64,000 nucleotides of DNA from NCBI RefSeq assembly GCF_002214805.1, contig NZ_CP019914.1, forward strand, positions 1,674,001-1,738,000. The letters are read 5' to 3'. Within the stretch, counting starts at the first letter, position 1. Every line of letters starts with the position of its first letter. Positions 33,199 to 35,268 of the stretch are shown here, one piece after another. Made by a program: the position numbers and the translations under genes. Below the pieces are notes generated by a model. That model was not told where the DNA came from and did not search any database. It worked only from the letters and a program-made list of their open reading frames with translations. Source of the stretch: Brachyspira hampsonii. GTDB taxonomy: Bacteria > Spirochaetota > Brachyspiria > Brachyspirales > Brachyspiraceae.

Positions 33199-33210
33199 TT
33201 GTCAAAAATA

Positions 33211-33641
33211 ACGCACGGTTAATGAAATTTTATATATTGTTCAAATTATAATTATTAATCGATTTATATTTTAGATTTTATTCTGCGTGCGGTGTATGCA
33301 TTTTAAATTAAAAAAAATACTTGGGCGGGCAGCTAAAAATTATAATTGAACAAAAAAGAAATCAAAAATTAATATTACAAATAAAAATCATAAGCCTAGA
33401 GGGTGGGCAAGTGTAATTAAATTTTAAAACTTTAATTACATACCCCGCCCTTTATATTTTTTAATTAGTTTTGAAAATTATGTTCTATTTTTCTTAATGC
33501 TTAATTAGAATTTCAAGACACCCACCCAAGTGTTGTTTAAATTTTTAATCTTATAAACGCACGGTGAATAGAATTTTGTATATTGTTTAAATTATAATTA
33601 TTAGTCGATTTATATTTTAAGTTTTATTCTGCGTGCGGTAT
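33211..33641. repeat. Intergenic repeat, inverted relative to 29311-30088
   Basis: The order is ACGCACGGT (33211), TGCGTGCGGT (33285), CTTGGGCGGGC (33321), GAGGGTGGGCAAG, CCCCGCCCTTT (33442), ACCCACCCAAG (33520), ACGCACGGT (33557) and TGCGTGCGGT (33630). Bases 33409-33565 are the exact reverse complement of 29732-29888. It directly follows the helicase stop. Confidence 0.9.
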
Positions 33642-33642
33642 A

Positions 33643-33676
33643 ATAAAAAATCCGGCAAATAAATTTACCGGATTCT
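33643..33676 (-). terminator. Rho-independent terminator of the small-membrane-protein cluster
   Basis: On the minus strand ATCCGG and CCGGAT form a stem enclosing an AT-rich loop with further pairing, followed by TTTTTTATTA. It lies 22 bp past the stop of the gene at 33698. Confidence 0.85.
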
Positions 33677-33697: not shown

Positions 33698-34219
33698 TTA
33701 TAATTTTTCTAGAAGTTTTTTAGCAAATACAGCTCCAAAACCTATAACAGCAGCAACTACTACTAATTGGAAAATACCTTCTATGATATCATCCAAGTTG
33801 TATAGCATGTAATGCATTCCGAAAAATCTTGAATAGAATATAAATAATGCAGTTAATGCCAATATTCCAATTACAGCCATAATAATTATTATACTTTTAT
33901 TAGATTTATTATTTTTTTCTTTAACAACTATAATATCTTTTTTTTCATTATTAGCTTCGCTTTCATTTGCTTTTGCTTCTTTAGTATCTTTTGAATCTAT
34001 TTTTTTAAATAAAATAAAAGCAAACATTATCATTACAGCAAAAACAGAAATTTTTAATAATGCTTCTATAACTTCATCGAAATCATGCATTAAATAAAAC
34101 ATATAATACTGCAAACCCAAAAATCTTATTGCCGCTATAAATAATGCCGCTGCCGCAATAGAAGCTGCAATAATTATAAACTTTTTTGATTTTACAACAG
34201 ACATTATGTTATTTTTCAT
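33698..34219 (-). CDS. Small membrane protein with two copies of a shared module
   Basis: A 173-residue protein with four predicted membrane helices (about residues 13-33, 55-72, 109-130, 150-167) in two similar halves separated by a charged cytosolic linker (residues 74-108). Each half reads FLGLQYYMFYLMHDFDEVIEALLK or FFGMHYMLYNLDDIIEGIFQ in part, followed by a hydrophobic helix and a Lys-rich end. The same module, (D)xxDxIExxxKLV then a helix then KK, occurs once in each of the next two upstream genes. I recognise no family. It is the last gene of a three-gene operon. Confidence 0.72.
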   Translation of the reverse strand: MKNNIMSVVKSKKFIIIAASIAAAALFIAAIRFLGLQYYMFYLMHDFDEVIEALLKISVFAVMIMFAFILFKKIDSKDTKEAKANESEANNEKKDIIVVKEKNNKSNKSIIIIMAVIGILALTALFIFYSRFFGMHYMLYNLDDIIEGIFQLVVVAAVIGFGAVFAKKLLEKL

Positions 34220-34244
34220 CCTTCCCTCCTTTATAAAAAATAAC

Positions 34245-34799
34245 TTATCTTATCCTTTTTTTATCATCTTTTAATTTATATTCAGGTTTTAATTCATAAA
34301 CTTTTTCATATCTAGGATCATTTTCTCTGCTGTCTATATTGCTTTTAATATTACCGGGAATCCTTCTTTCTCTTCTTTCATAATCCCTCATATCATATTC
34401 ATATTGTATGTTATCTTCTTTTATTCTTTCTCTTTTATTATTGTTTCTTTCATTTTTATAATCATCTTCATAATCATCGTAGTACCTATCATTTCTTACT
34501 CTATTATCATAATCATCTTCATAGTCATCATAATATTCCTCTCTTCTTCTAATCTTTCTTCTTCTGCTAGGTTTCCTATAATCATCATCTCTATCATTCT
34601 TTCTTATTTTTCCTGAAGTGTTATCATCTTTTAAAACCTTTTTTATGAAGTATACCACAGCCAATATTACAACAACCATTAGTACTAGTTTTACTATATC
34701 TTCAATAAAATCATCTACATCATCAATTAAATCAAAACAGTACAGATTTGCCGCAATGATTAGATTGAAAATAAAAGCTTTTAATCCTAATTTTTTCAT
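34245..34799 (-). CDS. Small membrane protein with shared module and charged repeat tail
   Basis: A 184-residue protein. A signal-like N-terminus (MKKLGLKAFIFNLIIAANLY) is followed by the shared module CFDLIDDVDDFIEDIVKLV, a membrane helix and KKVLKDD. The remaining 120 residues are very rich in Arg, Asp, Glu and Tyr, with a tandem duplication of YYDDYEDDY (about residues 88 and 105). Such a tail may bind nucleic acid, metal or a partner protein. The N-terminal 55 residues closely match those of the 66-residue gene upstream. Function unknown. Confidence 0.72.
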   Translation of the reverse strand: MKKLGLKAFIFNLIIAANLYCFDLIDDVDDFIEDIVKLVLMVVVILAVVYFIKKVLKDDNTSGKIRKNDRDDDYRKPSRRRKIRRREEYYDDYEDDYDNRVRNDRYYDDYEDDYKNERNNNKRERIKEDNIQYEYDMRDYERRERRIPGNIKSNIDSRENDPRYEKVYELKPEYKLKDDKKRIR

Positions 34800-34829
34800 T
34801 ACTTACTTTCCCCCATTAATTTTTACTTA

Positions 34830-35030
34830 TTACCTATCATCAGAATTAGAGTCTTTTTTAACATATTTTTTAAATATATATACTCCTGCTGCTATTATTA
34901 CCACAATACCAATTATTTTTGCCAAATCATCAAAAATAAAATCAAAAGTATCTTCTATTAAATCAAAACAGTATAAATTAGCAGTCATAATAAATATAGA
35001 TGCTAAAGCCATTAAACTTAACTTTTTCAT
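34830..35030 (-). CDS. Minimal single-module membrane protein
   Basis: A 66-residue protein consisting only of a signal-like N-terminus (ending ANLYCFDLIEDTFDF), the shared acidic helix (FIFDDLAKII), one membrane helix and a short basic end (FKKYVKKDSNSDDR). It has the strongest ribosome-binding site in the cluster (AAGGAGG) and is first in the operon, 30 bp before the next gene. The conserved ANLYCFDLI block is shared with the neighbour. It may be the minimal form of the family. Function unknown. Confidence 0.7.
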   Translation of the reverse strand: MKKLSLMALASIFIMTANLYCFDLIEDTFDFIFDDLAKIIGIVVIIAAGVYIFKKYVKKDSNSDDR

Positions 35031-35065: not shown

Positions 35066-35094
35066 AGTATAGCACATTAAATAAGTTTTGTAAA
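35066..35094 (-). promoter_or_regulatory. Predicted promoter of the small-membrane-protein cluster
   Basis: On the minus strand TTTACA (35094-35089), a 17-bp spacer and TATACT (35071-35066) lie 35 bp before the ATG at 35030. Bases 35095-35268 show nothing else that I can name. Confidence 0.7.
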
Positions 35095-35268
35095 GCTAAA
35101 TTTAAATAAATTTTACAAAAAATATAGTATTGTAAATAAAATGTAAAGTAATATATAATACAAATCATACATTTTTGGCAAAAATTTAAAATAATTTCTT
35201 ATATTTAGAGGATAGAATTTACTAAATATTAATTTTTGTATATAAATATATTTTAAGTAAAAAAAATA

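Follow-up and report, generated by a model that had tools for sequence, protein, structure and literature searches.

Small membrane proteins of comparable design

The major coat protein of Inoviridae, encoded by gene VIII of M13, is synthesized as a precursor of 73 aa, in which a signal peptide is followed by an acidic amphipathic helix, a membrane helix and a basic C-terminus. TrbC/VirB2 pilins (PF04956) are likewise short, hydrophobic membrane proteins bearing a signal peptide, and in BlyA-type and other small holins a membrane helix is also followed by a charged tail. Small bitopic proteins often regulate larger membrane pumps, transporters or proteases. FXYD proteins, AcrZ and KdpF are small single-span regulators, some of which are acidic in the segment outside the membrane and basic at the end inside.

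The locus considered here lies in a window of 64,000 nucleotides (contig NZ_CP019914.1, positions 1,674,001 to 1,738,000) of the Brachyspira hampsonii genome (3.19 Mb, one contig). Its three genes, A, B and C, encode proteins that share one module of an acidic helix, a membrane helix and a KK end. The product of gene A is similar in length to the M13 gene VIII precursor and has the same order of parts.

Organization of the locus

The features of the locus are given below (positions in the window).

34830..35030, minus strand: gene A, 66 aa, from the open reading frame and its translation
34245..34799, minus strand: gene B, 184 aa, from the open reading frame and its translation
33698..34219, minus strand: gene C, 173 aa, from the open reading frame and its translation
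35066..35094, minus strand: promoter TTTACA-17-TATACT with an extended TG, 5' of gene A, found by a scan of the window and aligned across 24 genomes
35088..35118, no strand: inverted repeat TTGTAAA-N17-TTTACAA, candidate operator, overlapping the -35 element of the A-B-C promoter
33647..33676, minus strand: intrinsic terminator, 21 nt 3' of gene C, with a 13-pair stem (4 G-C) followed by TTATTATACC

The order of transcription is A, B, C, with gaps of 30 nt (A/B) and 25 nt (B/C), and the genes appear from this layout to form a single compact, operon-like cluster. A preliminary description of this DNA had proposed a three-gene cluster with products of 66, 184 and 173 residues, in agreement with the ORF calls and translations, and had called the promoter and terminator clean. 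Both elements are present: the -35/-10 region and one upstream arm are conserved in an alignment of the upstream regions of 24 genomes (G082 and G159 were left out), and one terminator-like site is found against 0.3 expected. The promoter scan as a whole gives no excess, however, with 14 promoter-like sites against 18.8 expected from shuffles.

The inverted repeat occurs once in the window (0.02 expected), its longer form is a single site genome-wide, and at the A-B-C cluster 19 genomes of the alignment of 24 have it in exact form. A common operator regulon was considered and rejected: TTGTAAA-N13-19-TTTACAA is found 0–7 times per genome, against 0–4 for a reversed-pattern control. A second recurrent operator-like site, followed by a gene which we take to be oligoendopeptidase-F-like, is seemingly part of the promoter of that downstream gene, so a shared regulator is not claimed.

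On the 3' side of the unit lies an intergenic repeat consisting of two 87-nt direct copies (33210-33296 and 33556-33642; 90% identical, 346 nt apart), the edges of which are ACGCACGGT and GCGTGCGGT. The end motifs recur in the window about 346–347 nt apart near 29.7–30.1 kb and 49.8–50.1 kb, and the genome contains partial copies of the repeat at about 20 sites.

Relationship between the three products

Profiles of A, of the B module and of the first and second halves of the gene C product (C1 and C2), each aligned from 19 genomes (18 for C), were compared using hhalign. The closest pairs are A and B (E 2.2e-30) and C1 and C2 (E 6.2e-17), followed by B and C2 (E 2.2e-7), B and C1 (E 2e-6), A and C1 (E 2.2e-5) and A and C2 (E 2.9e-5). 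A and B are related over their entire shared length; the likeness to C spans about 31 columns, comprising the acidic half-helix, the membrane helix and KK.

Membrane proteins match one another for cheap reasons, and the control was therefore confined to segments: the columns of C were permuted only inside the terminus, hydrophobic, acidic, hydrophobic and tail segments, which preserves both layout and composition. The observed score was reached by none of 150 shuffles for A–C1, B–C1 and B–C2 and by 2 of 150 for A–C2, so the match of the modules is not reducible to generic hydrophobicity. A profile built of the C module only, run against whole genomes, retrieves B in 10 of 26 of them, with E-values from 9e-6 to 1e-4. 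Judged from the profile E-values, the segment shuffles and this retrieval, all three products are homologous; the link of A and B to C is weaker than that between A and B, but survives the layout-preserving shuffles. The proposed distribution of the module, one copy in A, one in B and two in C, is upheld.

Gene A product

The 66 residues of A comprise a predicted signal peptide (1–21), an acidic amphipathic helix (22–38), a membrane helix (approximately 39–53) and a KK tail. All listed A sequences have C, S or G immediately before F22; such small residues fit cleavage by signal peptidase and not a lipobox, and the signal peptide is likely cleaved before F22. The possibility that A is a bacterial lipoprotein was rejected, since only 45% of 24 A sequences have C at this position, the rest having S or G.

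Averaged over 24 A sequences, identity to the residue in the window amounts to 97% for the acidic segment 22–38, 71% for the membrane helix, 59% for the signal peptide and 57% for the tail; 20 of the 24 carry the segment FDLIEDTFDFIFDDLAK without any change. Residues F22, I25, F29, I32, L36 and I39 recur at a spacing of 3–4, and the hydrophobic moment of the acidic segment at 100 degrees is matched by 13 of 2000 shuffles.

Gene B product and its tail

The module occupies residues 1–61 of B and is followed by a charged tail; the hydrophobic moment of its acidic segment is matched by 3 of 2000 shuffles. Two details noted earlier can be read directly from the translations, namely the stretch NLYCFDLI (residues 18–25 in A), which is common to A and B, and the 9-mer YYDDYEDDY, present in two exact copies in the B tail. 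The 125 residues of the tail (60–184) include 38 R+K, 35 D+E and 15 Y. In the AlphaFold model of B, one helix (3–61) is followed, after residue 62, by a chain mostly with pLDDT<50, and the tail is probably a disordered cytoplasmic polyampholyte.

B measures 84–112 aa in 8 genomes and 146–198 aa in the other 18. Two end motifs, YEYD(M/L)RDY..RRE and RYEKVYELKPEY(K/R)LK, were found by a scripted test in 16 of 16 long-tailed B and in 0 of 8 short B; two further long-tailed B (G082 and G159) also show both motifs, as read from the sequence listing. DDY-rich DNA elsewhere (G000:1624197-1624490) was rejected as a relative, because it encodes an aspartate-rich protein of 135 aa without the module, and the likeness is of low complexity only. 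This 135 aa protein (L084 2595-3002) is made up mainly of repeats of D, Y, F and E, and the gene upstream of it is presumably phosphoglycerate-kinase-like.

Gene C product and module duplication

Each of the two module copies of C has a presumably uncleaved leading membrane helix, so that four membrane helices are predicted. The AlphaFold model, which is of low confidence, places helices at 12–33, 48–87, 105–134 and 136–172. The acidic stretches of C are less clearly amphipathic, their moments being matched by 242 and 51 of 2000 shuffles.

A single-module C of 70–83 aa is found in 7 genomes. In a module tree of 39 rows from 23 genomes, which is short of columns, C1 forms one clade (98/94), and C2 and single-module C are not cleanly separated. 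The occurrence of single-module C in seven genomes and the single C1 clade point to a tandem origin of the longer protein, and the data fit one duplication within C. The same 18 of 26 genomes that have a two-module C also have the long tail of B; this may reflect one shared ancestry rather than functional coupling. The series from single- to two-module C with a matching change in the B tail could be regarded as a natural experiment on how sets of homologous membrane proteins grow by duplication.

Distribution, neighbourhoods and selection

Genes A and B are present in all 26 Brachyspira genomes. The order A-B-C is identical in 25 of them, so relatives of one gene are accompanied by the other two; the exception, G010, retains A and B and lacks gene C. 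A scan of one genome per species (84,980 species) revealed 14 named loci with the A-B-C genes, all of them in Brachyspira, B. hampsonii being the most similar among the named isolates.

Outside the genus, the search for A and B gives weak matches (E 1.4e-5 to 0.0098) in 16 of 366 genomes of the phylum. Four of the loci of these 16 genomes with E<=0.01 were read (G279, G302, G141 and G150; L076, L077, L079 and L080) and contain no relative, and the other 12 were judged by their short spans and weak scores. The matches in G279, G302 and others of the same kind (best E 1.4e-5; read at L076 and L077) cover the signal-peptide part of a 91–97 aa protein whose remainder is quite different. Additional same-genus matches in G005 (L078 and L085) were likewise set aside as signal-peptide or hydrophobic likeness. 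For the family's other genera, represented by three genomes, the best E is 0.097 (G061). Relatives were not found in viral_contigs, and those of A were not found in 50,697 phage records. The family thus appears to be confined to the genus Brachyspira, with no credible outside relative in the genomes searched.

The upstream neighbour of the unit varies: of the 26 genomes, 9 have an oppA-type gene there, 5 have murA, 5 an EamA transporter and 4 nfeD, and the other 3 show no large ORF (one representative of each type was confirmed by Pfam, the others being assigned from the N-terminal sequence). The A-B-C unit therefore occupies at least four chromosomal settings and was retained whole while its surroundings changed. 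In G002 (L022 1-3780) and G120 (L073), several kb 5' of gene A contain no sizeable ORF and possibly carry RNA genes. In the B. pilosicoli group (L021 2750-4687), a 640–660 aa ankyrin-repeat protein with a signal-peptide-like start is encoded on the same strand about 90 nt or less after gene C.

For nine species pairs, dN/dS (NG86) is 0.04–0.30 for A, 0.08–0.20 for B and 0.09–0.32 for C, that is, 0.04–0.32 over all 27 comparisons. Purifying selection acts on all three genes. A gene set present in each species sampled from this genus of gut pathogens, strongly constrained and absent from the sampled relatives, marks biology peculiar to the genus.

Possible function

The preferred explanation, to which a probability of roughly 0.4 is assigned, is a Brachyspira-specific hetero-oligomeric inner-membrane assembly of A, B and C with the B tail as a tether. 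The preliminary description had likewise suggested a multi-subunit membrane assembly, perhaps with one subunit acting as a fused dimer; both co-assembly and such a role of C are hypothetical. A-B-C would be a core operon of the genus, and its three homologous products would associate with one another in the inner membrane. A and B would be exported and, upon cleavage of the signal peptide, become bitopic, with a periplasmic acidic helix, one membrane helix and a cytoplasmic KK-rich end. We infer this topology from the lysines after the membrane helix of each module and from the positive-inside rule, according to which a lysine-rich flank lies on the cytoplasmic side. C, with its module present twice and its leading helices uncleaved, would span the membrane four times. 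The acidic helices could pair via their hydrophobic faces (in A, the six residues from F22 to I39 listed above), with the membrane helices packed below them; the hetero-oligomer could be nucleated or spaced by C, and the long charged tail of B with its end motifs could tether a cytoplasmic or membrane partner. At a guess, the complex would scaffold or regulate some process of the cell envelope that is particular to Brachyspira. A more specific version, namely a previously undescribed machine of this genus in which a polymer or ring of modules is capped or spaced by the doubled subunit and sends a disordered tail into the cytoplasm for an envelope role, is considered doubtful.

Homology of the products, retention of the order in 25 of 26 genomes, integrity of the unit in varied settings, short gaps of 30 and 25 nt and one promoter and one terminator were counted in favour of an assembly, as were the low dN/dS of all three genes, the conservation of the acidic segment of A, the high hydrophobic moments in A and B and the joint occurrence of long-tailed B with two-module C. 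Counted against it were G010, where C is evidently dispensable, the weaker amphipathicity of C and the low confidence of the AlphaFold models. The persistence of A and B without C in G010 would equally suit paralogues that arose by local duplication and act independently, with no common complex, and A/B and C1/C2 are plainly duplication products; nevertheless, the unit is kept together across at least four neighbourhoods, and this explanation is regarded as unlikely. It is possible, though still on the improbable side, that A, B and C are small regulatory subunits, alternative or combined, of a larger pump, transporter or protease encoded elsewhere, on which the acidic periplasmic helix docks. 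The acidic helix of A is its most conserved segment (97%), which is what docking on a conserved partner would predict, and in different species the unit adjoins membrane-associated genes (oppA-type, EamA, nfeD). However, none of the neighbours is constant, so they indicate no partner, and the likeness to FXYD proteins and AcrZ is putative.

Two further readings relate the unit to particles or filaments. The outline of small hydrophobic proteins with charged tails recalls holins, and sub-threshold matches link B to BlyA and C modules to Phage_holin_2; an origin from a phage or gene-transfer agent (holin, spanin or pore type), with a role in membrane permeabilization or particle release, could be considered on these grounds. 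It is made very unlikely by the negative searches of viral_contigs and, for A, of phage records, by the loci read, where no phage genes were recognised next to the unit, and by genus-wide retention under purifying selection. Still less probable are pilin-like or filamentous-phage-coat-like subunits, A and B, polymerizing out of the membrane. Part order and size like those of the M13 gene VIII product and the sub-threshold TrbC/VirB2 match to A would agree with this, but the profile of A has no convincing alignment with the coat protein (see below), and the loci that were read show no recognisable assembly ATPase next to the unit.

Comparison with known families

As had been stated in the preliminary description, no recognised family accounts for the three proteins: no Pfam/NCBIfam model exceeds its cut-off for A, B or C, and among the remaining sequences of alignments A4 and A5, listed by E-value only, the best E is 0.0018. 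A search of PDB sequences gave no match at E<=1 for either profile, and Foldseek of the PDB with the model of C gave nothing better than E 2.4. The AlphaFold models are of low confidence (pLDDT 55.2 and 60.6, pTM 0.20 and 0.28) and uninformative on assembly. PHROG contains no match to A at E<=0.5; A4 members match it weakly, mainly in unnamed families, with a best E of 0.00087 in 1 of 15 members. The parts of the Brachyspira literature that were available contain nothing pointing to A-B-C; locus tags were unmapped, so absence from print is not claimed. In PMC5764319, bhlp16/bhlp17.6 are termed 'small membrane proteins' and stand among outer membrane protein genes, which makes them a separate matter from A-B-C.

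The suggested 'new class' holds in a narrow sense, that of a protein family not described before and restricted to a single genus. By its sequences, the family is new and genus-restricted, and its design of three homologous genes is unusual. Small membrane proteins are an ordinary kind, however, and the restriction of such proteins to one genus is common enough to limit the surprise.

Aligned by hhalign, the A profile and M13 gene VIII give E 0.2 over 9 columns, that is, no sequence relationship. Unlike gene VIII, A-B-C belong to the chromosomal core of the genus, without recognised phage genes alongside, and inovirus genes such as the assembly ATPase were not recognised near the unit in 26 loci, as judged from ORF starts and position (7 neighbours were scanned with Pfam). 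The match of A to TrbC/VirB2 (E 0.036, 14.7 bits) is below the cut-off of 27.9, and no conjugation genes were recognised beside A-B-C. B matches the BlyA holin at E 0.011 (15.7 bits, below the cut-off of 52.85), and no lysis or phage context was recognised around A-B-C in the loci that were read. Phage_holin_2 is matched below threshold by 2 of 12 C-module sequences (best E 0.0042; the one member with bits shown scores 15.3, under the cut-off of 32) and by gene C of the window at 14.7 bits, below the same cut-off. A-B-C may resemble FXYD proteins, AcrZ and KdpF in outline; they would differ from these regulators in comprising three homologous proteins encoded together, one of them internally duplicated.
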